Shown here: piece after piece, positions 1 through 16,303 of the stretch | Position numbering within the stretch: the stretch's first letter is position 1 | Layout: every line of letters starts with the position of its first letter | Source of the DNA: Mycobacterium uberis | GTDB taxonomy: Bacteria > Actinomycetota > Actinomycetes > Mycobacteriales > Mycobacteriaceae | Length of the DNA stretch: 64,000 nucleotides | Reading direction: 5' to 3' | NCBI RefSeq assembly: GCF_003408705.1 | Contig: NZ_QAYL01000003.1 | Coordinates: 1-64,000 of the forward strand | Position numbers and translations under genes: made by a program | Notes under the pieces: generated by a model | The model's input: the letters and a program-made list of their open reading frames with translations, nothing else | Databases searched by the model: none | Told to the model about the DNA's origin: nothing

Positions 1-88
1 TTGCATCACGACATCACCATGGTCACACTGGCTAGACTCTCCCCAGATAAGAACAGACCAAAACCTCGCTTCAACACCACCAACCAAC
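1..88. repeat. 88-bp direct repeat, copy 1
   Basis: Bases 1-88 are identical to 15697-15784, and the two copies diverge directly after the shared CAACCAAC. The window begins inside or at the edge of this copy, so its true left end is unknown. No transposase or known mycobacterial element is recognisable in the 88 bases. The copies lie in the same orientation on either side of a 15.6-kb block whose gene order belongs to another part of the M. tuberculosis map. Confidence 0.95.
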
Positions 89-210
89 AACACATAGGTT
101 TACAACGAGATTCGAAATTACCAACGAACTGGCCTGCACGAGGACTTTCCAGGCGTTGTGTCGGCTTGAGTCCCACGGCTTGTTGGATTGTCTAAATTTT
201 GGGTGTGGCC

Positions 211-1483
211 AGTATAGGTATGTCAATTGAGCAGTTGATCGTGCGCTCGAGAGGTGATCAGTGAGTCTGGTGGGATGCTCGACAGACCAGCGGGTCAATT
301 GGACTACCTGCGCGGCGACGTTATCGATAGTAAACTCTGCTGATTTGTAGTCTGAGCTTATCGGGTTGGATTACCGACCGCTGTACTACTTTGAAATGCC
401 GCCGGCCTTGTTAGCGCCGATTGTAAAGAACCTCGCGAACGTAGGATTGCTGCGGCGAGTACACGTCGCGGTGGAAAAGCCATTTGGCCGCGACCTGGAT
501 TCGGCGCGGGAACTCAATGTTCGACTACACGCGGTGCTTGACGAAGAGCAGATCCGGCGGGTGGACCACTTTTTAGACAAACGGCATGTTGTTGAGGTGG
601 AATACCTGTGATTCATCAACCAGATGTTTGCACAATTGTGGGACCGGCACATTATTTCCGATATCCACCTCACCATGGCCCAAGGCTTCAGTGTGCAGAC
701 CTGCGGCAGGTTCTATGATGTGGTCGGGGCTGTATGTGGCATCATACGAAGCCATCCACTGCAGGTGTTAGCACTGATTGCGATGGAGCCGACGATGGGC
801 CCGAGTGTCGATGGTTTGAACGACAAAAGGCCAAGGTGTTTCGCGCGATGTCGGCTCTGAATCCACAGTGTTAAGTACGTGGTACGTACCGCGACTCTAC
901 CGACGTCACTGAGGTGGACAAGATTCGCAAGCCGAACATTTACGTTGCACTGGCGGGAGGCCGAGATTAACAACTGGCGGTGGTTCGGAGGGCCGATCTT
1001 CTTGCGCGCGGGAAAGGCCTTGCTGGCGAAGGTTATCGATGTGCTGCTGTTTTTGCGGAATGTTCCCGGGTTGGCTTTCTGGTCTAACCGCCGACAAGCT
1101 GAACTCAACCAGATCGTGCTGCGCATCGATTCCGATTCGAGTTATGCGCCTGCAGCTAGCCGCCTAACTGGGCGACTTGTGGCACGATGTTCACCTAAGA
1201 ATTTTTCCTTCGCGGTGGGACTCGGTGAACCGGTGCGGCCTTATGAACGACTTCTCTACGCCGGGTTGACCGATGATCGGCAACTTTTCGCTCGAGAAGA
1301 TGGCATCGAAGAGATGTGGAGCATTGTTACGCTGCTGCTAGCCATGTAGGGCAAATCGATCTGTACGACCGTGGGTCCCTTAGGGGCTCTAGGCTGCGCA
1401 GTCGCTGCTGTGGGGCCATCGCAGTTGGCAAGAACTTGGTTCTCTGCGGGCACTCCCGCAACACGGCAAGGAGACCGAAGAAG
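211..1483 (+). pseudogene. zwf1: glucose-6-phosphate dehydrogenase Zwf1 (Rv1121-like), decayed
   Basis: Pieces in different frames follow the order of G6PDH, the NADP-dependent first enzyme of the oxidative pentose phosphate pathway. They are an N-terminal stretch near 213-345, the substrate-binding VEKPFGRDL plus RVDHFL region at about 470-575, a middle part near 620-850, a stretch containing NRRQAELNQIVLRID near 1085-1130, and the C-terminal RPYERLLYAGL at about 1235-1265. Stops and frameshifts separate every piece and the NAD(P)-binding start is missing. It runs directly into a gnd2 remnant, as in M. tuberculosis. It cannot encode a working enzyme; a zwf2 elsewhere would be needed for G6PDH activity. 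Confidence 0.9.
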
Positions 1484-2525
1484 ATGCAGATGGGAATGAT
1501 TGGCCCGGGTTGCATGGGTGCCAACATCGTGCACCGCTTAGTCTAAGGACGAACATGAGTGCGTGGTGTACGACCACAACCTTGATGTGGTCAAGGCGCT
1601 GGTCAGTGAGCGAAAAACGATCGAGGTGGCGTCGCTGGCCGAGCTACGCGGCAAACTTCGCGCTCCACGAGTGGTCTGGGTGATGGTGCCCGCGGATGAT
1701 ATCATCACTTCGGTGATCATAGATCTGGTCGACACACTCGAGTCTGATGACATCGTGATTGATGGTGGAAACTCCTACTACCGTGATGACATCGAATACG
1801 TAAAGATCTTTTCCGAGAAAGGGATTCATCTACTTGATTGTGGTATCAGTGGTGGTGTGTGGAGCCGGGAACGTGGCTATTGCCTGACGGTCGGTGGTGA
1901 CGACTGCGCTTTGCGTACGCAGAGCCACTGTTCGTTACCATCGCGCCGGGTGTCGAAACAGCACCGCGTACGCCGGACCGACACGGTGATCTCGCGCAAG
2001 CTGAGAAGGGCTATTTGCACTATGTCCCTTGTGGGGCAAGCTATTTCTTCAGGATAGTGCACAAAGGGATTGAGTACGGGATGATGGCATCGCTAGCCGA
2101 GTGAGGAAACCCTGCTATAAATGCTGATATCGGTACTTGCGTGCAGAAAGACCTCGAAGCCAGCGATGTCGAAACCATACTGTTGGAAAACCCGGAATTC
2201 TACCAATACGATATCGATCTCCCAGCAGTCGCCGAGGTATGGCGACGGGGAAGTGTGGTCAGTTCGTGACGCCTGGATTTGACTGCGTCAGCGCTGCACC
2301 AATCGCCCGCGCTGAACGAGTTCACCGGACGGGTGTCCGACAGTGGGGAAGGTCGGTGGACCGTTTAGCACGGCGGTCGATGAGGGGGTACCGATGCCAG
2401 TGCTGACGACCGTCCTGTATGCGTGCTTCGCCTCGCGTCAGATCTTTGAGTTCGGTGCCAAGGTGTTGTCGGCGATGCGCAAGCAGTTCGGCGAGCATGA
2501 CGAGAAGCCCTCTGGTGAAGAGGGT
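1484..2525 (+). pseudogene. gnd2: 6-phosphogluconate dehydrogenase Gnd2 (Rv1122-like), decayed
   Basis: The start at 1484 reads MQMGMIGPGCMGANIV, the dinucleotide-binding loop of 6-phosphogluconate dehydrogenase. A 164-aa open stretch at about 1563-2057 carries VWVMVPADD, DIVIDGGNSYYRDD and LLDCGISGGVWSRERGYCL, all typical of the short Gnd2 type. The frame breaks after residue 20 and again several times after 1900; the end reads LSAMRKQFGEHDEKP near 2470-2510. An intact paralogue, gnd1, lies at 45896-47347, so the reaction itself is retained. Confidence 0.92.
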
Positions 2526-2529
2526 GAGT

Positions 2530-3460
2530 TGTGTCGGACGAAGTCCACGATGGCTTCGGTGAACGCGTTACTGTCATCACCAGCTGTGGTATGCTTCGCG
2601 TTGGCCGATTCGACGAACTCCGCCTGCGATGCCTTGGTGAGAAAATCCTGAACGTCCTCGGAGCTGACCATGTTGGAGAGTTTGTCGTGAATCAACAGGA
2701 TTGGGATCTTCAGATCGACGGTAGTGTGCTCGATTTTCTCGATGCACAGCTCCGGGTCGTCTCCGGGTTTGGTCATCATTACCGAATTCCAGTGCCAGTA
2801 TCAGCGTTTGCCGTGCAGTCGTAGGTTTTTTCAATCCTTCGGGATTACGTGGTTTCCTGCGGTACGGCAGGTAGGCCACGACAGCGACGGCCTCGTCAGG
2901 GGAAGCAAAACCCTGGAGGTGGATGAACATGAAATCGCGGATGCGGGCGTTGCTACCCTTCATTGTAATGCGGCACCGCGTCGACCAAACATCAGCCCGA
3001 TCGCCCTTTGGTCAACGGTACTTTCGGCGACAAGGGATGCTGGTGAGTCGGCTCACACTGGTCCCAATCACCACCGGGCTGCCGGTCGAATCAAACACGC
3101 GTAGGACGTCTTCGGTCAAACTTTCGAGGGTGTAGTCGGCGTCCGGCGTACGGTTGTTATCACCGTGTCTACGTGTGTCGATCGTGATGACGTGGTATTT
3201 TTAAATTTATGAAGGTCTGGCCGGCGGCTTTTCAGGAGAGCCAGTTTTGATCTCTGCCGTGCAACATTAGGACGATTAGTGCTGCCTTGGAGCCAGGGCT
3301 CCATTCGTCGGCATCCAGGGGTCTTATCTGCGTTGACAAAGCTAACCGTTTGGGGGCTGTGTATGGTGCTACGCTGTGTTCAGGGCTTGTTTCCAGACGT
3401 CGAATCGGGCAGTATGTTCGGCGCTTCCCATGGTGGGCAGCAATACCGCTCAACCTGACG
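2530..3460 (-). pseudogene. bpoB: alpha/beta hydrolase / peroxidase BpoB (Rv1123c-like), decayed
   Basis: On the minus strand an N-terminal fragment (about 3240-3450) reads EWSPGSKAALIVLMLHGRDQN, a damaged oxyanion-hole motif of alpha/beta hydrolases. A C-terminal fragment (2530-2779) reads LKIPILLIHDKLSNMV through to FTEAIVDFVRHNSP, the usual end of these proteins including the region of the catalytic His. The middle is spread over other frames with stops. It is convergent with gnd2, the order seen in M. tuberculosis. BpoB is annotated as a non-haem peroxidase, but the substrate of the family is uncertain. Confidence 0.75.
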
Positions 3461-3759
3461 ACAACGATTCTTTGATTCTGTTCAAACGCCCGACCTCAGA
3501 ATTGGTGGTATTAGTCGCCGTGTCGGTGGAGGTTTTGTCGAACTAGTCTGCTACGCACTCACCATGGTTTGGCGGCTGTGATTCATCGGTAAATAGCTCG
3601 GCGAAGCTGCCGCATAAAACTCGATTCCTAACCGTCGTATCCATGTCGTCGAACAGCTAGTGCAGCGTTTTCTGAGTGTGGCCGAAGGTGTCATCCAGGT
3701 GTGGACAGTCGCTATCCTAGAGTACATTGTTGAAAACCATTGCGGTCATCGCCACGATC

Positions 3760-4735
3760 GCCGATCAGTCGTGCTGGAACGACGCGTACATATGTGCGTA
3801 GATTATCTCGTGCACACCACGATTGATCTTGTTTTCCAACACTATTGAGTGCTGGCGATATCCCTCTTCCGTTCGGTCGATGATGAACGGCACCCACGTC
3901 GCTTTACCCTCCGACACCAGAACTTTGAGTTTTGGGGGCCGATCCAATGCCCGTGAGGCGACGAGCTTGACCACCGCACGCTGGCCACCGAATGACGTCT
4001 CTGTGTAGTGGAGAACCGCACCTTCTGGGCTGTTATAGGTCATCCCGATCGAGCCGCTGACGGTGAAATCGCTTGTTGCAGAGCCGATGCGGAATGCGAC
4101 CGCCATACCGATTGCTTCAGCGATGGTCCAGAACGGTTACCATTGCTCGCGGTGGAAATTGCGTTGCGTTGAGTGCGGCGTGATGGTAGGAAAGATTTCC
4201 TTGAAAATATTGCGCCACAATGAATAACTCTGCTTACTGCATCGTCGAAATCTGGTGTCGACACTTGTACAGTAGGAGTCAGTAGCGGAAAGTAGTACAT
4301 AATTATTTATGTTGCACAATCATCGGACGCCTGCATCGCTTCACACAAACAGCTTTAGCATATGAAACGAGCCGGAACATATTCCTAATGATGGAAACAC
4401 CAATTACGACAAAATGCTTTCGTCATCGAGATCGGTAAGTCACTTTCCGGTGTCCCAGGTGTCCAGTGCTGCCGCCGTGTCTTGTAGAAATTGTTCTTGA
4501 GCAGCGGTGAAAAACCGGCAGCGGAAGTGCCTGGCTTGCACGTTGCATGGCACTAAGTCGACCAGCTGCTTGGGTAGCCGTGAACGCCACAGGTTGGCGG
4601 GTTCGATGAAATGTAGAGCCGTCCGAGTTAGCCGCATAGTTCGAGGGGTACTGTCATGAATCCAAGTATTAGAATTACTTTTTAGTACTATCAATACTGT
4701 CGACATCTGGTCGGCCGCTGCGGTCAGCACTGAGA
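3760..4735 (-). pseudogene. unrecognised minus-strand gene remnants
   Basis: Two open stretches on the minus strand, 3765-4106 (113 aa) and 4440-4730 (96 aa), read like real protein. The first contains GMTYNSPEGAVLHYTETSFGG followed by basic and hydrophobic alternation; the second contains DLVPCNVQARHFRCRFFTAA and ends with ALDTWDTGK. They are separated by about 330 bases full of stops. I do not recognise a family and they could be one or two former genes. They lie between the bpoB and TetR remnants, where I recall no gene in M. tuberculosis. Confidence 0.4.
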
Positions 4736-4779
4736 TAGTCTGGCCTGCACTGATGAAGCAGCCTCTCTGACGTTGGCGT

Positions 4780-5565
4780 TAACCGACGGTGGTGAGGAAT
4801 CGCAATGTGGCCGGTGTAAAGACCACTTCGGCCTGAGTGAGCAGATCATCCTGGACCGGCTCTATGAGCTGATCAGCTAAGCGAATCTGACCCGTGCGAT
4901 GACAGCCACCAAGGCGATGTTCGATATGCGCAAGGTTATCGTAGCCAAGCTGGAACGAATGGTTGCCCATATTGTATCGAACAGTGAGCCAGTCGATCCA
5001 GTTAATTGTGGTGTTGATGATCGTCGGTACATTGTCCGGGTTGTCGCATACAGCCACCATCAGTGTTGCTTTCGCCATGGTCGCCATCAGCACGTGGCTC
5101 AGCAGTTGCCTGCGTAGCGACGTGTCCAGCTCCAGACTCGTCCATCCAACTGCAGAAGGCGGCCATCATGCAGCCGCGATGAGCGATCTCGAAGCCGGCT
5201 GGCGTGTTTCCGGACGACAGTATCCTGACTAGGCGCCGGTTCTTCCACATCGCCTCGAGGTAGGCTCGCACATGGACCTCGAATACCCATCCTCCGGGTC
5301 GATCCCCGCTGGGACGGACTGGGCCTTTTACCGCGTCGTGGCGTCGACAGTGTCGGCCATGTACTCCAACATTGTCAGAAACAGCTTGTGTTTGCCCCCC
5401 GAAGTGGTAGGAGATGCTGGCGCCAGAGCCGGCCATCACGTTGGCCATCGTCGCCGCAGTGAAGTCCTGGTCGCTAATACTGCGATCGTTGCGTCGAGGA
5501 TTTGCCGTTGAGTGGCGCTGATCTTGGATCTTGGCCCAGCGGTGGGTCCGTGCGGAGGTCGTCAT
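4780..5565 (-). pseudogene. TetR-family regulator, decayed
   Basis: The 5' part (5400-5560, minus) reads DFTAATMANVMAGSGASISYHF, the helix-turn-helix of a TetR repressor. Later pieces near 5100-5290 and 4779-5093 read like a TetR ligand-binding domain (ATMAKATLMVAVCDNPDNV and further on). The frame changes at least twice between them. The partner genes are probably the unrecognised remnants just downstream at 3760-4735. The protein cannot be made as one chain. Confidence 0.6.
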
Positions 5566-5859
5566 ACCTAGACGCTAACGGGTACGTCGGACCGTCAGTC
5601 GTGCCTTGCATTGGCCAGTCGATACCACATAAGTCTCAGGTCGATGACCCCGCGTTAAGTTGTTTGGGTGCATGTCCTGTTAGGCAAGCTAGCAGGACAT
5701 GCTGCACAAGAGTAAACGTAGCGGCGATGCTGCTGATTTCAGGACAGAGACTATAGCGCGGCGGTGACGAGTGGCGTTTACCGTGAGATGCGCCGGATGT
5801 CCCGCGATGATTGAGCCCACACTGGATCGACGTGCGAAAGCCCGCTGGGTACCTTAAGA

Positions 5860-6575
5860 CTCTGACCTGGTGCCACACAGATCGCCTTGTGTCTGCACGG
5901 TTTCCCTGACACCGCCTACGGTTGGCGTAAGATCATTCCCCGCCGGATAGATGAGCTATCATGCCCTATTATTTGAGCATTTGAGGGCACGTTTTATACG
6001 TCGCTACCCACCGATGGGAGTTATCACGGTGTCGTGTTGATGGATGACGCCTTGCGCGTGCTTCTAGCTGTAGATAGTACCGAACGCGATGTGGTGATCG
6101 GTCACGACTGGGGTTGACATGGCCGCTATTGGCCCTGGACACGATGTCCGACAGTCCGTTCCCAAGACGGTGATCATGTCGGTGCCGCTTTCGGCAGCGT
6201 TTCGATCGTCGGGCCGGCTGACCGACCGTGGCCGGCTGGTGCTGACGTTACCGTATTAGCTGCTGCGCAGTTAATCCTTCCATCTACTTTCAATTATCAT
6301 TGTGTTGAGCTTTGCTGTGCGACATTTAGTCGCCGGCGCAGCATGCCGAATTGGAGCGGCTGTGGACCGAGCCGCCTGTATTGCCGAGTTTGTACCTGTA
6401 CGGTGGTGACACCGGTTGCTTAGCTACGGTTTTCATGCGCTGGACGGAACGGTGCTGTAATCGGGCAGTGAAGTAACAATCGTGGAGTATGCTGGGCTTT
6501 TCTTGCCGCTTGAGCAATCAGACAAGGTTGGCGAATTTATTCTGGCGTTCATCGTCTTGCTCGGCTGAGGCCACG
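5860..6575 (+). pseudogene. ephC: epoxide hydrolase EphC (Rv1124-like), decayed
   Basis: Near 5880 the plus strand reads LCLHGFPDTAYGWRKIIP, the HGxP oxyanion motif of alpha/beta-fold epoxide hydrolases. Near 6091 it reads VVIGHDWG, the nucleophile elbow with Asp in place of Ser. Near 6170-6240 MSVPLSAAFRSSGRLTDRGR continues in another frame, and the end near 6480-6560 (VEYAGLFLPLEQSDKVGEFI) corresponds to the catalytic His region, where His has become Leu. Many stops interrupt it. The motifs identify the fold firmly; the label ephC rests on position before Rv1125. Confidence 0.75.
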
Positions 6576-6599
6576 GTGATGCATTGAATGACGACCGTC

Positions 6600-8460
6600 G
6601 AAGCACCATTCTATATTGATGTCAGCCAAAGTCTCCAACGACCAATTTCTGCCCTATGCATTCGACGGCCAACTCGTCCGGCTCGATGGCGTCATCAACG
6701 ATATCCGCCGCCATCGAGCCTGTCCTGATTTGACGATTCGCCTCGACGGCGGGTCTGCACTGACCTATCCACGGCGGGTCCTGGCGACCGCCGAGCCCGC
6801 GCAGTTGGTTGAGCATGAGCTCGCTGATCACACTTGGTGTGGTTGCCTAGCCGCAGTGGTTGATCTTGCCGGCAAGCAGTTAGTGAGCAGTTAGATATTC
6901 GCTAGATGCTTTGGCGAATAAACATTTTCATGTTTTGTTATCGGAATTCCGGGGCTCATCGGCCCGAATGCCGTTGCGGTTATGCAGGTTGCAAATGTGC
7001 TAGCTGACGGAGCCTGTATTTTGGCGACGGCTTCTCGGTCGGCCGGTGTCGGTGTTCAAGGTGGCGCGGTTACCGGCAGATTTTTACCGTGGCGAACGAT
7101 TGATGCGGCCCGCACGCACCGCCGGGTAATACACTATACCCGCACCGGGTTGCTGGTACCGTCGTTAGATTCCGTCGCTATCGAGCTATGCCCGCTCGTA
7201 GGGCACCCACGTCGTGCACACGTTGGTATGGCACTGTACGCAACTGCCTAGTCCCACGGTTACCGTCGCCGTGCTAGCCGCGGTATCCAGGGCGACGTCG
7301 TAGATGTTGGGTGAGGCGGGAAGGCGCTCTGAGCGCTGAGGTGCTGATAATTTAGGTTTGTTGTGGCACAAGCTCATAACTATTTCAGCAATGTCGTTGT
7401 GGGGCTGTACCCGGAGCTTGGCCAGGATGTCCGGGTGCAGCGGATCACGACAGACCTAGTCAACGGGTGTCGCCGCTTCCAGCATCCGGTTGTGGTACTC
7501 AACCGGCCGAGCTTTTGTCGCGATCCTGGCTGCTCTGAGCAGGTTAGGACGCCTCGCTATTCGCCTCGGATGTCCGGCCAGAACTGACGGCCGGACATCT
7601 AGTACTGAGACCTGCGAAGGGTCTGACCTATGACGTGTACAGCATAGGCGACACTATAGTAATAATTAGTGTGCATGCGGCCGAGTTGACGATGGCAGGT
7701 ATCGACGTCTGTCTGCAGCTGCTGTATCCTGGCCTTTAACGTAGGGTTTTCCTGTAGAAAATCGTAATGTAATGTGCTGCGATTGGGTGTGGCTAGAGCA
7801 ATTCCTCAGCGTGATTTGTGCAATGAGAATACGAAGATGGTCCATGTTGTCACCGCAGGTGGGACATTCGTTATTACGCGCAATGGCGATCTGGTAGCTG
7901 AGCTTAGTCCTATATGAAATCGGTCGCCGTATCCTAAACGTTACGCACGAAGAAGTTGCTACACTGACCGGTGTCCGCGTGTGCATTGATCATTGACAGT
8001 TCTACGCAGTCTTCGACCAGTTGATCGACCAAAAATCTCTAGCATGACGTCCGGTATTCTGGATACGTCGGTTGTGATCGACTGACACGGTTCTGCGGTG
8101 GTCGCTGCACCGCCCAACGAGATAGCAATATCAGCCATTATGGCTGTTGATTTGGCTTCCGGTCCGTTGTCGACCACAACACCGGTGGAAGAGGCCAAGC
8201 AGCCGAACCGGTTATAGGATATCGAATCGACTTTGGAGCCAATCTCTTTCGACGGAGCCATGGTACGTGGTTACGTGCTAATCGTCGCAGTTGTGGTGCG
8301 CGAAGGAAAAGAACCGCGAAGCAGGTTCGCCGATCTGTTGGTCGTCGCGACGGCGCACGTCAACCACTGTGGACTTCTACAGTCGCAATGCGGACGACTT
8401 CGCCGGCCTTGAGAAACTGATCCGTGTCGCCGTTATCTGATTCTGGTAATGCATCTGAGC
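6600..8460 (+). pseudogene. Rv1125-like conserved protein, decayed
   Basis: Open stretches in changing frames run from MSAKVSNDQFLPYAFDGQL (6616) through a piece near 6982-7251 and a piece at 7363-7500 reading FSNVVVGLYPELGQDVRVQ. From about 7600 to 8460 no clear frame can be followed. The position between ephC and Rv1126c matches Rv1125, a conserved mycobacterial protein of unknown function. I infer the identity mainly from gene order. Confidence 0.5.
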
Positions 8461-8584
8461 TCGCCCAGCGGTCCTGTTGTGTTAGAGTAGCGCACTTTGA
8501 CACCGATGTCCGGTGTTGTCGTGTCGATGGGTGTGAAGCAGCGGGCTAACCCTTCAAGCGGTGTTGGATAGATTGCTACAGAAC

Positions 8585-9190
8585 TTACTGCGCATCAATG
8601 GATCTCGAGTCTTCCTCTCGGGTGATGCCAATAGCGAGGATCAGCTCCTCGTGTAGTTCGAACCACACTGTGTGGTAGGAGTCAATGAGTGGCTTAGTGA
8701 ACCATGCGATCTGTCCAGCCTTGACTTTCTCTAACGCGGTATGCAATTTCCCCAGGTAAGTACTCAACCGTGGCAGCTGCTTCGCCACTACCTCGATGAT
8801 TGGTACCATCCGTTCGTGCACTGCATCGAGGCGCGCCAAAATCGCAGCATCGTATTCGGGATTCTCGTGGGTATTAGGACTATCATTTTTTATTTGCCAG
8901 TCCGTCGCCAGGGCCTTGAAATCAAGGTTAACGGGACAGAATTCGTGATAGGAAGCTGCCAGTGCGGTCGTGTCGATGTCTTTGCGCTCATCGGCGAGTA
9001 AGGCGTTTAGCTGCGTGCGGCCGGTGGGGCTGATCCTCAGTGTCTTTCCCTCGACTAGTAGGCCGGCTGCGGTTAGTTGTTTGACGGTTTTAGTGACCTC
9101 GGTAAGATCGTCTCCCAAAGTTGCAGCCAAGTCGGAAGAACTTACCCGACCCTTCAGCCGAACTGCCTGCAGTACTGTCAATTCGGTCAC
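8585..9190 (-). CDS. winged-helix-like partner of PPDK-like protein (Rv1126c homologue)
   Basis: This 201-aa protein starts GTG-ACC-GAA at 9190. The GTG overlaps the TGA of the upstream PPDK-like gene by four bases (GTGA), so the pair is almost certainly translated in a coupled way. Residues 1-60 look like a winged helix-turn-helix (LQAVRLKGRVSSSDLAATLG, then a TKTVKQLTAAGLLVE recognition-helix region and a GKTLRISPTGR wing). The rest is alpha-helical without a known motif; YHEFCPVNLDFKALATDWQ and LHTALEKVKAGQIAWFTKPL stand out. The family function is unknown. Its survival beside a truncated PPDK in a decaying region suggests the two act together, perhaps as a regulator or a scaffold. Next to it, 7600-8580 is gene-free apart from remnants. 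Confidence 0.9.
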   Translation of the reverse strand: MTELTVLQAVRLKGRVSSSDLAATLGDDLTEVTKTVKQLTAAGLLVEGKTLRISPTGRTQLNALLADERKDIDTTALAASYHEFCPVNLDFKALATDWQIKNDSPNTHENPEYDAAILARLDAVHERMVPIIEVVAKQLPRLSTYLGKLHTALEKVKAGQIAWFTKPLIDSYHTVWFELHEELILAIGITREEDSRSIDAQ

Positions 9191-10833
9191 GGTTTGGCCT
9201 GGCTTCGCAGCCGTAGCGCGGTCATCATGACGATGAGCGGGGTAGTTGACACCACGTCGGTGTGCCCGGTGTCCATTGCTGCGCGTATCGCGGCATCGGA
9301 CGAGTCATCCAGCCTCGGATGGTCCCCGGTCGCGTGTGCACGTAGCGGGCTGATGCGTCGCGCGATGTCAGCCAGCTCGCGTAGCTCTGGTGTGTCATTC
9401 TCCGACCACGCGGACAGTGTCAGATTGCCGTGGCGAACCTCGCCTTCGTCGCCGTCGACGGTGATCTGTTTGCCAGCCAACGATGCGACGGTTCCCTGGC
9501 CGCAGCCCACCACGGCCACTCGGCCGAGTTCGCGGCTGACCACTGCCGCATGGCTGGCGACACCACCGACCTCGGTGACAACACCCTGTGCGGCCAACAT
9601 GCCGAGGACGTCTTCGGGCCTGGTGTGGTTGCGCACCAGGATGACCTGCTCGCCCGCTTCGGCGGCGTCTAGAGCCTTATCGACTTCGGTGTACGCTTTG
9701 CCCGATACCACGCCCGGGCAAGCTGGCATGCCTTTAGCTAAAAGTGGTGCAGCTAAACGTATCTCCTGCCGTAGTGGGGGTAGGAGCACGGTCTCGACGT
9801 GTGCCGGGGTCACTCGGCGCAGTGCCTCGGCATCGTCGATGAGCCCCTCGTACCGCAGTTGTAGCGCCAGGCGCACCGCCGCCTGTGCCGAGCGCTCTGC
9901 GGTTCGGGTCTGTAGTAGCCACAACTTGCCGTCCTCAACGGTGAACTCGATCTCTTGAACGTCAGATCCGAGCCGCTCCAAGTGGCTAGCTGCGTCCATC
10001 AACTCGTCGTAGACAGCCGGTTTATCGTCGCGCAGGGCTGTAATCGGCTGGACGTCCACCAATCCCGACATCACGTCGTCGCCTTGGCCGCCGGGAAGCC
10101 ACTCACCGAACGGTTCACTGCCGCCGGTTATCGGATTGCGGGAAAATAACACTCCGGCTCCGGAGTTGGCGCCTTGGTTGCCAAACACCATCGCTTGCAC
10201 AATCACAGCTGTACCACCCTGGTCATCCAGACCGTAGTGGGTGCGGTAAGCAACCGCGCGAGGAGAATTCCATGAGGAGAAAACGGATTCGATGCCCGCG
10301 CGCAACTGAGTGTAGGGATCGGTGGACAGAGGATCTGATTCACCTACGATGCGCCGATACGTGCGAGTGAACCGTAGGCGGGTGTCGCGGGCGAAAGTGT
10401 GGGCGATCAACGAGGTGTCGGCCGCAGCCAGCGCCTGCTCGACGGGAGTATTTATGCCCAAGTCCAGAATTGTGTCCATCATGCCGGGCATTGACTGTGC
10501 GGCCCCGGAGCGAACGCTGACCAGCAATGGCCGTGGCCCCCGCCCAAACGTGCGTGAAGTTTCGGCTTCCAGCCACCGCATCCTGTCCAGCACGTCGTCC
10601 CAGATAGCCTCCATCGTAGGTTCGGGAGCGGTCAAATACCGGCCGCCGACCTCGGTGGTAATGCAGAACGCTGGGGGAACCGGCAATTGGTGTCGGCGCA
10701 TCGCGTTGATGCTATGGCCCTTGCCACCCAGGATTTCTCGCGATTGATGCGCGTCGCCGTTCAGCAACACTACAGAGTGCTCGGTGGACGTGGCCGCATG
10801 TTGGTTTGACGTCGTGATCCATTCCTGCGTCAT
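9187..10833 (-). CDS. ppdK: pyruvate, phosphate dikinase-like protein without the C-terminal barrel (Rv1127c homologue)
   Basis: The 548-aa reading starts at the ATG at 10833 (MTQEW); 44 further codons upstream are open but lack family similarity. The N-terminal ATP-grasp half shows GGKGHSINAM, PLLVSVRSGAAQSMPGMMD, the FSRNPITGG loop, QGDDVMSG and the IEFTVEDGKLWLLQTR end. The swivelling domain shows CPGVVSGKA and GGVASHAAVVSRELG, whose His is the phosphocarrier residue of PPDK/PEP synthase. Full PPDK is about 870 aa; the PEP/pyruvate-binding TIM barrel is nearly all absent, as in Rv1127c. It should be able to take phosphate from ATP onto His, but the acceptor is not encoded here. It overlaps the next gene by 4 bases. 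Confidence 0.9.
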   Translation of the reverse strand: MTQEWITTSNQHAATSTEHSVVLLNGDAHQSREILGGKGHSINAMRRHQLPVPPAFCITTEVGGRYLTAPEPTMEAIWDDVLDRMRWLEAETSRTFGRGPRPLLVSVRSGAAQSMPGMMDTILDLGINTPVEQALAAADTSLIAHTFARDTRLRFTRTYRRIVGESDPLSTDPYTQLRAGIESVFSSWNSPRAVAYRTHYGLDDQGGTAVIVQAMVFGNQGANSGAGVLFSRNPITGGSEPFGEWLPGGQGDDVMSGLVDVQPITALRDDKPAVYDELMDAASHLERLGSDVQEIEFTVEDGKLWLLQTRTAERSAQAAVRLALQLRYEGLIDDAEALRRVTPAHVETVLLPPLRQEIRLAAPLLAKGMPACPGVVSGKAYTEVDKALDAAEAGEQVILVRNHTRPEDVLGMLAAQGVVTEVGGVASHAAVVSRELGRVAVVGCGQGTVASLAGKQITVDGDEGEVRHGNLTLSAWSENDTPELRELADIARRISPLRAHATGDHPRLDDSSDAAIRAAMDTGHTDVVSTTPLIVMMTALRLRSQAKP

Positions 10834-11024
10834 GCGCTTTTCCCAGTAGGTATCGCATGAATGCCGGGGATTCCGGTGCTGTTGGGCCGAGTGTTCAACG
10901 CAATTCCGACACTGTCTGCTCCAATGATCGTGTTGTTGATGTCGAGCTCCTGTACGGTTCTTCATGGGTTTGCCCGGGCAACGCTACCTGCCGAGGATTT
11001 GTCTCATCAGCTAGGTTTGAGTCT

Positions 11025-11534
11025 ATGACTTCCTACGACGTCGGGTTACTGGTCCTGCGGATGGTGCTGGGATTGACACTCGCCGCGCATGGCTACAATA
11101 AGTTCTTCGGCGGTGGTCGGATACCGGGAACGGCACGGTGGTTCGAGAACATCGGCATGAAGCCCGGGACGTTTCACGCCACCGTGGCCGCGACTACCGA
11201 GATGTCCGCCGGATTGGGTCTGGTCGCTGGCCTACTGACACCGATCCCGGCGACGGGCTTCGTCGCGCTGATGCTGGTCGCCGCTTGGACGGTGCACCGA
11301 ACCAACGGCTTTTTCATCGTTAAAGAGGGCTGGGAATACAACCTGGTGTTGGCTACTAGCGCAGTCGCGGTTGCCATGTTGGGCGCCGGCCACCTCAGTT
11401 TGGATTGGCTGATCTTTGGTGAGAACTGGTTCGACGGTTGGAACGGATTACTGATCTCGATGTTACTGGGTTTCGCTGGGGCACTCGGCCAGTTGCTGAT
11501 CTTCTATCGGCCGTCGGCCAATCAGACTTCATAA
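11025..11534 (+). CDS. DoxX-family membrane protein
   Basis: A 169-aa integral membrane protein is read from ATG 11025 (MTSYDVGLLVLRMVLG); the frame is open further upstream to 10857 but that part is not membrane-like. It has four predicted membrane segments at about residues 5-22, 50-72, 78-95 and 105-130, plus a final hydrophobic stretch near 140-160. HGYNKFFGGG after helix 1 and the glycine-rich helix 2 are typical of DoxX/DoxD proteins, which are linked to quinone-dependent redox chemistry and oxidative stress complexes in mycobacteria. It is divergent from ppdK across about 190 bases. No strong ribosome-binding site is visible. I recall no DoxX gene at this place in M. tuberculosis. Confidence 0.85.
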   Translation: MTSYDVGLLVLRMVLGLTLAAHGYNKFFGGGRIPGTARWFENIGMKPGTFHATVAATTEMSAGLGLVAGLLTPIPATGFVALMLVAAWTVHRTNGFFIVKEGWEYNLVLATSAVAVAMLGAGHLSLDWLIFGENWFDGWNGLLISMLLGFAGALGQLLIFYRPSANQTS

Positions 11535-11785
11535 TTGGCAATACCTTGTGTTCCCCTCGGCCTGGGGTGATCATCGTAAGATGTGTTTGCTTTATAATAT
11601 TTTGCGATCCATTAATGTGCATATTATTAACGTAATATTTTGTTGAAAGTATATTCGCTATATGATGCCTTTAGTGAGTTAAGGAAGACTCGCTATTAAT
11701 TGAAGCCGGTCTTTATGGGTCCGTACTAGGTGCGCCGTAGGTGGCTGGCCTTGCGGTGGTTAATGTACTAGTGATCATCTGTGGG

Positions 11786-12028
11786 TTACTGGCGGGGTGG
11801 ACCACCACAGATTTCGTGCGCGAATATTCGACTGACTAGGTCGAGGGCGGTTTGACGAAGCAGGTCACTTACGCTTGCTTCTTGCTCCTCGGCAAACTGG
11901 CGTAATTCCTTGAGGAGTTGCGTCTCCAGGCGAACTGAAACCATCTGCTTGATCGACTGACTTGCAGTCTCATAGTTGCCTTCCTCTGCTTTAGCGGTAC
12001 CGGGTTGCACTGCGCTTCTCATCCTCAC
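11786..12028 (-). CDS. ribbon-helix-helix DNA-binding protein, start region frameshifted
   Basis: The 80-aa reading starts with GTG at 12028. Residues about 25-65 (SIKQMVSVRLETQLLKELRQ, then FAEEQEASVSDLLRQTALDL) match the beta-strand/two-helix fold of CopG/Arc-type antitoxins and repressors. The only good ribosome-binding site (GGAGGAGGGG near 12050-12060) instead serves an ATG at 12044 in another frame, which gives an 18-codon peptide MANKHREDEKRSATRYR ending in TAA at 11991-11993. The two frames overlap, so one base change has probably split an ancestral gene starting at 12044. Expression would need reinitiation at the internal GTG or ATG (12028/12022). No toxin gene is seen beside it. It may be a young pseudogene. 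Confidence 0.5.
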   Translation of the reverse strand: MRMRSAVQPGTAKAEEGNYETASQSIKQMVSVRLETQLLKELRQFAEEQEASVSDLLRQTALDLVSRIFAHEICGGPPRQ

Positions 12029-12044
12029 GGTGTTTGTTAGCCAT

Positions 12045-12569
12045 CACGACCCCTCCTCCAAGTTTTATGGGTGATCTTTTCCCACTGTAGGACCTCGGCA
12101 GTTTTGGCAATTTATCCCTGTCACAGGCCGTAGCCAATCGCCGTGTTTCCAGGAATCTATCGAAGGGGGGCATAGCGTGTCCTACGTGGCGGTTAGTGCC
12201 TGCAATGACGAAACTCTGTCCAGACGGGACTCAGCTTGATCGCTACTAGATGTTTTTGCAATACTGCGCTGACTACCACTGCATCCACGTTGTGGAGCAG
12301 GAAGTCAACATAATTGCCTTCCTCATCCTCGTTCACAACGAGCAATTAACCATCATGATACACATAGTGCTGCTACTTTTGCATTCAGCGAGGTGCGAAT
12401 CGCACTACTCGACACATAGCCAACCCACAAACAAATCTAAACGGGACGCAGCGGCAGGCGAATCTGGGCGCGGCGTGGTCACAGTGGCCGACATGGTGAC
12501 CTGACAGCCCTGGGCCGACGATGTGTCGGTCCAGGTGCTATCCGAGCCAGCCGACGAATCCGAGGTGAC
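12045..12569. other. gene-free stretch upstream of the ribbon-helix-helix gene
   Basis: About 525 bases between the ribbon-helix-helix gene and the metE stop. Short open stretches here (for example 12250-12504 on the plus strand) have no recognisable motif, odd composition and no ribosome-binding site. I see no RNA gene or clear terminator. Confidence 0.5.
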
Positions 12570-14852
12570 TTAAGTCCCTGCCCGCACCTCGTGCGCTGCT
12601 GCGACCATGTTCTGCAGTGACGCGCTAACTTCGTCGACCGAACGGGTCTTCAGCCCGCAGTCCGGGTTAACCCAAAGCCTTTGTACCGGTATGGATTTTA
12701 AAGCTGAACGCAGCGACTTGGCCATCTCATCGATGCGCGGTACCCGCGGTGAGTGAATGTCGTAAACGCCCGGGCCTACGCTGTTGGCGAAGCCGACCGC
12801 GTTAAGGTCGTCCAATACTTCCATATGTGAGCGTGCCGCCTCGATGGATGTGACGTCGGCGTCCAGGTCGGCGATAGCTCCAATCACCTCGCCGAACTCT
12901 GAGTAGCACAGATGAGTGTGAATCTGCGTCGAGTCGGCTACCCCCGAGGTCGCTAGTCGAAAAGCCCTTACAGCCCAACGCAAATACTCTTCTTGATCGG
13001 CGCGACGCAGTGGTAGCAGCTCGCGTAGCGCGGGCTCGTCAACCTGGATGATCGCGATACCGGCGGACTGTAGATCCACAGTCTCATCGCGAATCGCCAG
13101 TGCCACTTGGTTCGCGGTGTCGGCCAACGGTTGGTCGTCACGAACGAATGACCAGGCCAAGATCGTGACTGGTCCGGTCAACATGCCCTTCACCGGCTTG
13201 TCGGTTAGGGACTGTGCATAGGTGATCCACTCAATTGTCATCGGGTGAGGCCGGGACACGTCACCGTAGAGGATCGGCGGGCGTACGCAACGGCTGCCGT
13301 AGGACTGCACCCAACCGTTCTGCGTGGCGAAGAAGCCTTCCAATTGCTCAGCAAAATACTGCACCATATCATTACGTTCCGGTTCGCCATGGACTAGTAC
13401 ATCTAGTCCGAGTTGCTCTTGCAATTTGATAACGTCGGCGATTTCCTTTTTCATTCTGCTGATGTACTCGGCCTCGTCGATCTCAGCGGCCCGCAATGCT
13501 GCGCGTGCTTTGCGGATCGTTGAGTTCTGCGGGTAGGAGCCGATCGTTGTGGTTGGCAACACCGGCAGGTGTAGGCGTGCGTCCTGGCTGGCGCGACGCT
13601 TTGCCACGTCGCCGCGGTGCGCACCGGACGCGATGATCGAGTCTATACGCGCGCGGACCTGCTCGTTGTGTAGTCGCGGATCGTTGCGCCGCGAGGCAAC
13701 AGTGGCATTGGACGCGGCGATCTCATTGGCGACCGTGTCGCGCCCGTTGCGAAGTGCGCGTGCCAGCACGACGACTTCGGCCACCTTTTCCGCGCCAAAT
13801 GCCAGCCAACTGCGCAAGTTGTCGTCCAGGTCGGTTTCTTGCTCCAGCGAATACGGCACGTGCAGTGTGGAGCACGATGTCGAAACAGCAACGGTGGCTG
13901 CCAAACCCCGCAGCGTCTCCAACTTGCTCAACGCCGACTCCAAGTCGGTGCGCCAGATGTTGCGTCCGTCGACGATGCCGGCCACCAGAGTCTTGTCGGC
14001 CAGTTCGGGTACCGCCGCGATCGCCGTGTCGGCACCATAGACGAGATCAACACCGATCGCCTCAATGGGAGTGCGGGCCAGTCCCGCCAAGGAAGCGGCA
14101 GGGTCGCCAAAATAGGTTGCCACATAAATAGCGGGTCGGTTGCTCACTGAGCCGAGCGTAGTATACACTGCCTCTGCTAAGGCTGGCGCATCGGGGGACA
14201 GATCAGTAACCAGCGCTGGTTCGTCGAACTGCACCCATCGCGCGCCATTCTTGGCGAGCAGCGACAGCAGCTCAGAATAGACCTTCACCAACTCCTCAAG
14301 TCGTTGTATCGGTGCACCCCCGCTATTGATGCCTTTGCTCAGTAACAGGAAGGTTATTGGCCCGATAACAACCGGGCGGGCCGGAATCCCTTGCTCAAGT
14401 GCTTCCTTCAGCTCACTGAGCACCTTGTCTGGGTTCAGTGAGAATGTGGTCGCGGGCTCGATCTCGGGAACCAGGTAGTGGTAGTTGGTGTCGAACCACT
14501 TTGTCATCTCTAATGGCTCGATGTCGTCGTTACCGCGCGCTAGGGCGAAGTACTGGTCTAGGTTGTCAGGCACTCGTGAGACCCAAGCCGGCAGTGCGCC
14601 GAGCATGAATGCCGTATCGAGCATCTGGTCGTAGTAGGAAAAGGTGTTCACCGGTACCGAGTCCAGGCCGGCGGCGACCAAAAACGACCACATGTCGCGG
14701 CGCAAGGTCGCAGCAACGGATTCCAGTTCTGATCGGCTGGTACGTTGGGTCCAATAGCCTTCGGTTGCCCGTTTAAGTTCGCGGCGCGGGCCTATACGTG
14801 GGGAGCCGGTAACGGTTGCGGTGAATGGTGGAGCGGTCACAGGTTTGTCCAT
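12570..14852 (-). CDS. metE: cobalamin-independent methionine synthase MetE (Rv1133c homologue)
   Basis: MetE transfers the methyl group of 5-methyltetrahydropteroyltri-glutamate to homocysteine without vitamin B12. The 760-aa protein is full length. The N-terminal barrel contains GFPRIG-like [12 protein letters not shown] and the [11 protein letters not shown] motif. The C-terminal barrel carries [11 protein letters not shown], the substrate-binding [14 protein letters not shown], a zinc-site His and Cys in THLCYSEF, and [11 protein letters not shown] with the last zinc-binding Cys. The start at 14852 ([10 protein letters not shown]) has only a modest site, AAGGATG, upstream. A cobalamin riboswitch lies about 150 bases upstream, so expression should fall when B12 is plentiful. 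It is the last intact gene before the 88-bp repeat. Confidence 0.97.
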
Positions 14853-15004
14853 TTGATCGACTTCATCCTTAAATCGACGGGGTGGTCACCACCAGCGGAC
14901 GCACAGCCGATCCGATTGCGGCAGCACCTCAGGTACTACAGCCGCAACAGCTACGGTCAAACGCCCATTCCACGAGGCGATGAGCCGTCGGACGCGGGCG
15001 CGCC

Positions 15005-15190
15005 CGACACAGCCGGCAGGTCTTCGGACTCGCAGGCGTGCACTGCTAGGTGTTCCTAATGGCCGTCGCGTCCTAAATCTCAGATTTTCTAAGACCAGTG
15101 CTTTCAGACGGTGGTTATTCCTGCATACCGCTGCGGGACAGTTCCGGATTCTCACCAGGTTCCCTTTCGCAATGCTTCGCTAGCATCACT
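15005..15190 (-). promoter_or_regulatory. cobalamin (B12) riboswitch upstream of metE
   Basis: The minus strand shows the conserved core of the cobalamin aptamer. AAAGGGAACCTGGTGAGAAT is followed by CCGGAACTGTCCCGCAGCGGT (about 15130-15165). The B12-box variant AAGCACTGG lies near 15090-15100, and GAGTCCGAAGACCTGCCGGC (about 15010-15033) closes the aptamer. It lies in the metE leader on the same strand. In M. tuberculosis the metE riboswitch turns the gene down when B12 is available; the same is expected here. The expression platform would lie between about 15000 and 14853. Confidence 0.93.
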
Positions 15191-15194
15191 CGAT

Positions 15195-15221
15195 GTTGGC
15201 GCCGCGTGGTGCGGCGCCAAC
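15195..15221. repeat. perfect 11-bp inverted repeat next to the metE riboswitch
   Basis: GTTGGCGCCGC (15195-15205) and GCGGCGCCAAC (15211-15221) pair perfectly around a 5-base loop. It is just 5' of the riboswitch on the metE strand, without a T-run on either side. It could be a U-less mycobacterial terminator protecting metE from upstream transcription, or an extra stem of the leader. Confidence 0.7.
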
Positions 15222-15452
15222 AGACCAGCTGCGTCATCCAGGTTACTCTGCGTGCTGCGGATGCGATGGATTAGCCCGCCAGGGCTTCTGCCCACCCTGG
15301 TCTGGTGTTGTGTGGTTTTGTTTTATGTGGGGTGTGGTGGTGTGGGTCGATGGGTTGTGTGAGTTGATCTACTGTGTGGATGTTCTGGTAGCCGTGAGTC
15401 CGTCGGTAAAGCGGGTGGTGTTGTGAGTTGTTTGTAGAAGGAGCTTGCCGCT

Positions 15453-15605
15453 ATGGCTGGTGTGTCGTGCTTGGCGGTGGGTTTGTGGTTGTTGCGGTAC
15501 GCGGCTGAGGAGATTGTGGGCCTGTTGGAATCTACATGTAAATGTAGATTGGGATACTGGCCGGGACTAGGTGTCTGGGATGTATCTGTGCGGGGGTTGG
15601 GGTAG
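15453..15605 (+). CDS. possible small ORF with good ribosome-binding site
   Basis: A 50-codon frame begins with ATG at 15453, nine bases after AAGGAG (15438-15443), reading MAGVSCLAVGLWLLRYAAEE and onward. I do not recognise it. It lies in a GT-rich stretch (about 15300-15440) between the metE leader and the second 88-bp repeat. The strong palindrome at 15529-15550 falls inside the frame, so it may equally be noncoding or a fragment of a lost gene or element. Confidence 0.25.
   Translation: MAGVSCLAVGLWLLRYAAEEIVGLLESTCKCRLGYWPGLGVWDVSVRGLG
15529..15550. repeat. perfect 9-bp palindrome, operator-like
   Basis: AATCTACAT (15529-15537) and ATGTAGATT (15542-15550) are perfect inverted arms around GTAA. 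The size and spacing suit a dimeric repressor operator or a short stem. The nearest known gene starts are far away (erg3 remnant downstream, metE upstream on the other strand), so its target is unknown. Confidence 0.6.
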
Positions 15606-15696
15606 CGACTCGCAGCACACTGTCTGGCGGGGGGTTGCGCTGGTCTTCATCAAAATGAGGTGAAGGCTAGCGCATGTACCGTAAGGGGCGACGGTC

Positions 15697-15784
15697 TTGC
15701 ATCACGACATCACCATGGTCACACTGGCTAGACTCTCCCCAGATAAGAACAGACCAAAACCTCGCTTCAACACCACCAACCAAC
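15697..15784. repeat. 88-bp direct repeat, copy 2
   Basis: Identical to bases 1-88 in the same orientation. It sits exactly where gene order changes from the metE (Rv1133c) neighbourhood to the Rv1814-Rv1868 neighbourhood. This makes it a likely site of past recombination. Sequence shared further left cannot be judged because copy 1 is cut by the window start. Confidence 0.95.
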
Positions 15785-15839
15785 CAACGGTTATGTCGAT
15801 TGTGTCCGCTGACATCCCGAGACCGAGCAGATCGATAGA

Positions 15840-16096
15840 CTCTCGTAGTCCTTATGAATTTATTTTTAACATGTCATTATACCATCGGGTGGATCAATTG
15901 GGTGTATCATGGGGCGAGTAAGATTTACTTCGACAAGAATTACGGTAGTATTTTCATTATCTGGGACCGGCTGTTCGGTAGTTTTCAGCCGGAGCTGTTC
16001 CCCCTGTACTACGGCCTAATTAAACAAGTCGACACATTCAACGTGTGGGCTTTGCAAACTCGCGAGTACGTGGCGATTGGCGACGTGTCTGCGTGA
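15840..16096 (+). pseudogene. erg3: sterol desaturase Erg3 (Rv1814-like), C-terminal remnant
   Basis: Only the last quarter of a fatty acid hydroxylase/sterol desaturase survives. The reading FDKNYGSIFIIWDRLFGSFQ is the highly conserved region after the last His box, followed by PLYYGLIKQVDTFN. The His box itself is reduced to VYHGAS. No upstream part of the gene remains before the 88-bp repeat, so the gene was cut at or near the rearrangement point. It is non-functional. Confidence 0.85.
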
Positions 16097-16303
16097 TCGG
16101 CTAGGTTACGTCCTCGGACCGTCCGATCGGGCGCTATGCAGGCTGATGACTTCATCTCGCTGGCTATATCCCGGTAGTGTTACCCCCGCAGTCAGAAGTG
16201 ACAACTGAACAGGGGACAATGTCAACGTGCTCGTTAGGGGAGGGTTACGCCGTAACCTCAACTTGCGGTCGGCAGTCGTGCCGGCCCCGATGGATCGGAG
16301 TCC

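Follow-up and report, generated by a model that had tools for sequence, protein, structure and literature searches.

An RLEP-type dispersed repeat of Mycobacterium uberis with likely imprecise self-copying and a probable part in chromosome reshuffling

Mycobacterium uberis is a cattle pathogen with a shrunken genome. We analysed the first 64,000 bases (the window) of contig NZ_QAYL01000003.1, here called C21, of its draft assembly (GCF_003408705.1; 3,122,721 bp in 54 contigs), and found that a repeat in this window belongs to a dispersed non-coding element of about 0.5 kb. The element exists in about 20 near-identical copies, occupies sites that are uninterrupted in Mycobacterium haemophilum, carries captured pieces of DNA in several copies, and lies at synteny breaks in the four that are readable from flank to flank. 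Imprecise self-copying is the likely way in which it spreads, and it probably contributes to the reshuffling of the chromosome. As to how this happens, we give an even chance to the following account: an element of the type of RLEP, the repeat of Mycobacterium leprae, is copied together with donor flank by imprecise templated insertion, and the copies then recombine.

An earlier note, made from the sequence of the window alone, had reported that bases 1-88 equal bases 15697-15784 exactly. The identity is real and is followed by a mismatch at the next base, but the 88 bp are not the repeated unit, as had been thought; they are the right-hand part of the larger element. Searching the whole assembly and extending the copies outwards, the check that the note had proposed, returned 17 matches of the 88-bp sequence (12 complete, one of 82 bases and four cut by contig ends), which rules out a repeat of only two copies. 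The suspicion that the contig was broken at a multi-copy sequence also proved right, as the first copy in the window (1-88, + strand) is the right-hand part of an element cut by the start of C21. From the second 88-bp copy (15697-15784, +) the repeat reaches leftwards to 15305, and in a subset of copies to 15278. The core of this second element copy comprises 480 bp (15305-15784, +). The longest open reading frame wholly inside it encodes 50 amino acids, and a protein-coding element was ruled out on this ground. The left end of the element is GT-rich, while the right tail is CA-rich and contains a variable number of AACACAAAAC units; the CA-rich tail of most copies is missing from the second copy of the window. 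Over about 41 bp, the GT-rich left end of this copy (15301-15343, +) matches at 85% the reverse complement of right tails that are intact in other copies.

With a 505-bp query from the window, at least 38 matches were obtained in the assembly (the best 40 of 51 candidates were scored), and exact seeds in the stretches around the query matches located at least 20 left and at least 17 right element ends. All element counts given here are lower bounds, and absences hold at the depth of the search, because several genome searches scored part of the candidates. A contig end lies at most 450 bp away from 16 left and 15 right ends, together 31 of the 37 element ends. The draft has 108 contig ends in all, and the repeat family accounts for 31 of these. 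Copies are named below by their contig, with s for contig start, e for contig end and i for a position inside the contig.

Flank pieces of 34 of the 37 ends served as queries against M. haemophilum and M. leprae, and all flanks were then aligned to the retrieved stretches. The first search placed 32 of the 34 pieces in M. haemophilum, those of the C9 left flank and the C48 end finding no place there; in the alignments, the C8 and C54 flanks did not align near the element, and those of C24, the C31 start and C52 aligned only far from it. Eight left/right flank pairs lie less than 300 bp apart in M. haemophilum and in the right orientation, where about 0.013 would be expected by chance. In the M. 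haemophilum alignments the gaps of these exact pairs are 7 bp (C41/C11), 59 bp (C3/C27e), 115 bp (C29e/C35e), 120 bp (C22/C27s), 152 bp (C20s/C29s), 196 bp (C18i/C39), 277 bp (C9/C20e) and 292 bp (C38/C2). Since the flanks of eight pairs are neighbours in M. haemophilum, the copies are insertions. Five looser pairs have gaps of about 1.4-8.8 kb (C17/C18i, C49/C48e, C21i/C48s, C54/C34, and C29i with the erg3 side). The flank alignments are free of overlap at all eight exact pairs. Base-level resolution was reached at C41/C11 alone; this site shows no target duplication, and about 7 bp of the target have been replaced. As to long target duplications, no 14-mer common to left and right flanks adjoined the element on both sides among the matches listed.

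When the flanks were sorted by the sequence adjacent to the core, they formed nested ladders on both sides. The earlier note had noticed the repeat but missed these captured flanks. The direction of capture could be read in several cases with the help of the orthologous sites in M. haemophilum and M. leprae. The C34 copy carries 36 bp of the C11 locus, the alignment of its own locus starting only at 103 bp; the last 14 bp or so of the C41 flank recur at C47 and C3; C31b has a further 33 bases in common with C47, to which they are native; and C20s has 88 bp in common with C49, the outer 30 being native to C49. C21i, the second copy of the window, and C24 have 27 and 40 bp in common with C22. 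At C22 the 40 bp agree with the locus itself, a fit that 0 of 500 shuffles equalled. The 27-base left module that C22 and C24 share lies at 15278-15304 (+) in the window, and it joins the metE flank at a GCCAG(G/T)GCT match. Two assignments were not upheld: C22 as the native locus of the left module's inner 20 bp, which C21, C22, C24 and others have in common (152 of 500 shuffles fitted equally well), and C27 as that of the right module of C27s, C20e and C29s (490 of 500). The right flank of the first copy in the window (89-114, +) consists of the same 26 bases that follow the right end at C48:30521, and the window site is a possible donor because its bases from 107 on align to M. haemophilum 3243157. 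Within a single copy, the left module and the right module come from different ladders, which would fit copies that recombine between copying steps. Captured flanks give the direction of copying and can show which stretches of the chromosome flanked a copy when it was copied.

The second copy of the window stands between two blocks that are far apart in M. haemophilum. The block between the two copies (107-15286, +) is in ancestral order, with collinear stretches in M. haemophilum (3243157 to 3223959, against window 107-15256), in M. leprae (1112774 to 1130492, against 110-15286) and in Mycobacterium lepromatosis (1377943 to 1395392, against 107-15282). Homology on the side of metE (12570-14852, - strand) ends at 15286 and resumes at 15822, which corresponds to M. 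haemophilum 2223737. This resume point lies inside a gene for a 317-residue protein (2223152-2224105, Pfam FA_hydroxylase), so the erg3-like gene of M. uberis is cut at the junction; its remnant (15822-16190, +, with the end estimated from M. haemophilum) lacks the first 585 bp. The next gene after the remnant matches the Rv1815-family serine proteinase. The synteny break thus falls exactly at the second copy, where the earlier note had already read a recombination junction, a jump in gene order and a truncated erg3. Its description of the block between the copies as displaced was correct for the new right-hand neighbour, but the inner order is ancestral, and the left-hand neighbour is unassembled. 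The adjacency of metE and erg3 is absent from M. haemophilum, M. leprae and M. lepromatosis. There the metE flank is followed, after 6.7, 5.9 and 0.7 kb, respectively, by the sequence found at the start of C48, and C48 itself begins with the right end of an element. Four copies are readable from flank to flank, and all are at breaks; the distance between their flanks in M. haemophilum is 1.0 Mb for C21i, 1.3 Mb for C17, 1.1 Mb for C18i and 0.3 Mb for C29i.

Eight joints with a target alignable close by were compared with the continuation of the target in a relative; these were picked after the alignments had been seen. At five of the eight there is microhomology, each time a matching stretch of 5-9 bases that contains no more than one mismatch (9 bases at C31b and C21i, 7 at C38, 6 at C20s, 5 at C20e), and the share of other offsets that were as good was 0 to 0.012. 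The gene for the end-joining protein Ku is intact in M. haemophilum, whose reading frame is open throughout, but stop codons interrupt it in M. leprae, M. uberis and M. lepromatosis. In the account that we give an even chance, a new copy would arise by templated insertion at a break and would bring along to the new site DNA adjacent to the donor copy, in varying length. Its ends would be joined through a few matching bases, with the loss of some target DNA, and no dedicated transposase would be needed in a lineage whose Ku gene has decayed. The near-identical copies would later recombine and swap left and right flanks, and such a swap would have produced the metE-element-erg3 junction of the window.

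Several points weigh against this account. Three of the eight joints show no microhomology (1 base at C47, 3 at C3, 1 at C34), and at the C38 and C20e (right) joints the donors are not established as native. For most copies, the left and the right flank are found on different contigs. The loss of Ku could be a single event in one clade. Short target duplications are possible at sites other than C41/C11, the sole one resolved to the base, and the significant inverted repeat of about 41 bp in three right ends would suit a transposase. Templated insertion also gives no reason why this DNA, and not other DNA, is copied; one may speculate that the GT- and CA-rich ends promote breaks.

The inverted repeat brings in a different explanation, a miniature inverted-repeat transposable element (MITE), i.e. 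a short non-autonomous element moved by a transposase that acts on its terminal inverted repeats and is now lost or encoded elsewhere in the genome. Left end and right tail share 35 of 41 identical bases in 3 of the 17 right ends (0 of 300 shuffles as good), and a high copy number and the lack of a long open reading frame would also be expected; M. uberis copies are short and non-coding like MITEs, and some have inverted ends. However, the inverted repeat is weaker or missing in the other, numerous right ends, the ends of the element are not fixed but differ from copy to copy, with donor DNA carried along on both sides, and no target duplication was seen, the flank alignments being free of overlap at the eight exact pairs. 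We therefore regard a MITE as unlikely. Still less probable, and in our estimate very unlikely, is a retro-element, in which an RNA reading from upstream through the element would be reverse-transcribed into new sites, for example by a group II intron enzyme like that behind the LEPREP pseudogene. Flanks captured on both sides and the variable CA-rich tail would suit it, and, according to PMC9248898, a maturase pseudogene seems to be the source of both LEPREP in M. leprae and LPMREP in M. lepromatosis. Against it, the reverse transcriptase family RVT_1 (PF00078) has no match in the M. uberis assembly, at a threshold below which decayed remnants could escape and at which the controls matched in 3 of 14 genomes; a reverse transcriptase partner was ruled out on this basis.

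A further alternative concerns only the window junction, which rests on one short-read draft: the assembler may have bridged the near-identical repeat of about 0.5 kb and joined the wrong flanks, the family itself being real. The crowding of element ends at contig ends speaks for such a misjoin, as does the fact that both complete bridged copies (C21 and C17) join non-neighbours of M. haemophilum while the exact ancestral pairs are all broken. On the other hand, the truncated elements at C18:221852 and C29:34360 (C18i and C29i) are also at breaks, and their junctions lie inside contigs. Moreover, the erg3 block of M. leprae (1100938-1105455) lies 7.3 kb before the zwf-metE block (1112774-1130492), the two being equally oriented, and a like arrangement exists in M. 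lepromatosis (1366890-1370796 and 1377943-1395392). The two blocks are 1 Mb apart in M. haemophilum, and side by side in swapped order in M. uberis. A random misjoin would rarely hit two blocks that are near neighbours in M. leprae and M. lepromatosis, which favours a real junction; a misjoin appears somewhat unlikely to us.

The family has the traits of an RLEP-type repeat: many near-identical scattered copies, a non-coding core of about 0.5 kb with variable flanks, and synteny breaks. According to PMC8620619, the function of the RLEP repeat is unknown, and additional sequences that vary flank it. Like the M. uberis element, RLEP has a non-coding core of about 0.5 kb in dozens of near-identical copies, a GT-rich left and a CA-rich right end, and variable flanks nested on both sides (18 of 36 M. 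leprae copies compared). Beside the copy at M. leprae 2152316, the first 110 bp or so to the right align to M. lepromatosis 1582352-1582463 and partly to M. haemophilum 1964055-1964115, and the flank beyond this captured host piece aligns to M. haemophilum 2650264. The two repeats differ in sequence, though: an RLEP primer is absent from M. uberis, and an RLEP query gave no significant match (best E 0.28), so that simple matching rules out that the element is RLEP, in line with the earlier note, which had not recognised it as such. Alignment of the cores is marginal: it was as good in 0 of 300 shuffles and, on repeating, in 5 of 500, with 12 of 500 for the reversed control; sequence kinship with RLEP is unproven. 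RLPM of M. lepromatosis is likewise a species-specific repeat with nested left flanks (9 copies compared of 33 matched), for which PMC9248898 gives 38 copies, a core of 626 nucleotides and many synteny breaks at copies. Its core shows no detectable kinship with that of M. uberis (115 of 500 shuffles as good), whereas RLEP and RLPM gave 0 of 500. LEPREP and LPMREP are dispersed repeats of the same clade too, but they differ from the element in that their core of 2.4 kb is connected with the maturase of a group II intron (PMC9248898), no reverse transcriptase having been found in M. uberis.

It is conceivable, and we put it forward tentatively as a rather less than even prospect, that the RLEP-type repeats of the leprosy clade spread unlike known bacterial transposition, by microhomology-joined templated insertion at breaks, freed by the loss of Ku. 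If this is true, each copying step adds donor flank, the ladders are both a genealogy of the copies and a fossil record of chromosome rearrangements, and they explain the variable flanks of RLEP. Captured flanks in any case offer a testable origin for its variable additional sequences. Six of 22 M. uberis flank positions lie less than 3 kb from an M. leprae RLEP copy (1.6 expected, P 0.003), including M. leprae 1870278 among the sites compared, some positions representing one and the same insertion. Weak spots that both genomes share may be the reason, or old insertions that they have in common. At M. lepromatosis 1581767-1582463, the coordinates place an RLPM copy directly in front of the segment that a number of RLEP copies of M. 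leprae have captured; this suggests that the insertion predates the separation of these two species.

Among 60 relatives, of which 36 belong to the same genus, none gave a match to the element (at most 10 best candidates scored per relative). A 3.2-kb query of metE and element matched with its metE part only in M. leprae, M. lepromatosis and M. haemophilum (13 of 20, 13 of 13 and 13 of 40 candidates scored). No match was obtained in phages or in plasmids, and an origin from either was ruled out; a pattern scan of a genome contig collection, which may leave out the window's own genome, also gave 0 matches. No description of a dispersed repeat family of M. uberis was found in the literature covered, including the accessible parts of PMC6170788 and PMC7692660, nor one of captured flanks for RLEP in a partial coverage that lies outside the primary RLEP papers. 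Being multi-copy, the family would lend itself to diagnostics in the way that RLEP serves as a target for leprosy.

The surroundings of some copies deserve mention. An Rfam search of window 14800-16200 gave no match in the element, which rules out a known RNA there; it found a cobalamin riboswitch between metE and the element (14998-15238, -; 58.1 bits against a gathering score of 31.5), and the element is inserted just beyond it. A transfer RNA as insertion site was ruled out, the window containing no such gene. The elements at C18:221852 and C18:319361 share the same truncation after about 199 bp and the same next bases; this looks like the copying of an already truncated element, one that lacked the right end, along with the flank beside it. 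In the left flank of the copy at C49:28856, a stretch of 76 bp is tandemly repeated, 91 bases apart.

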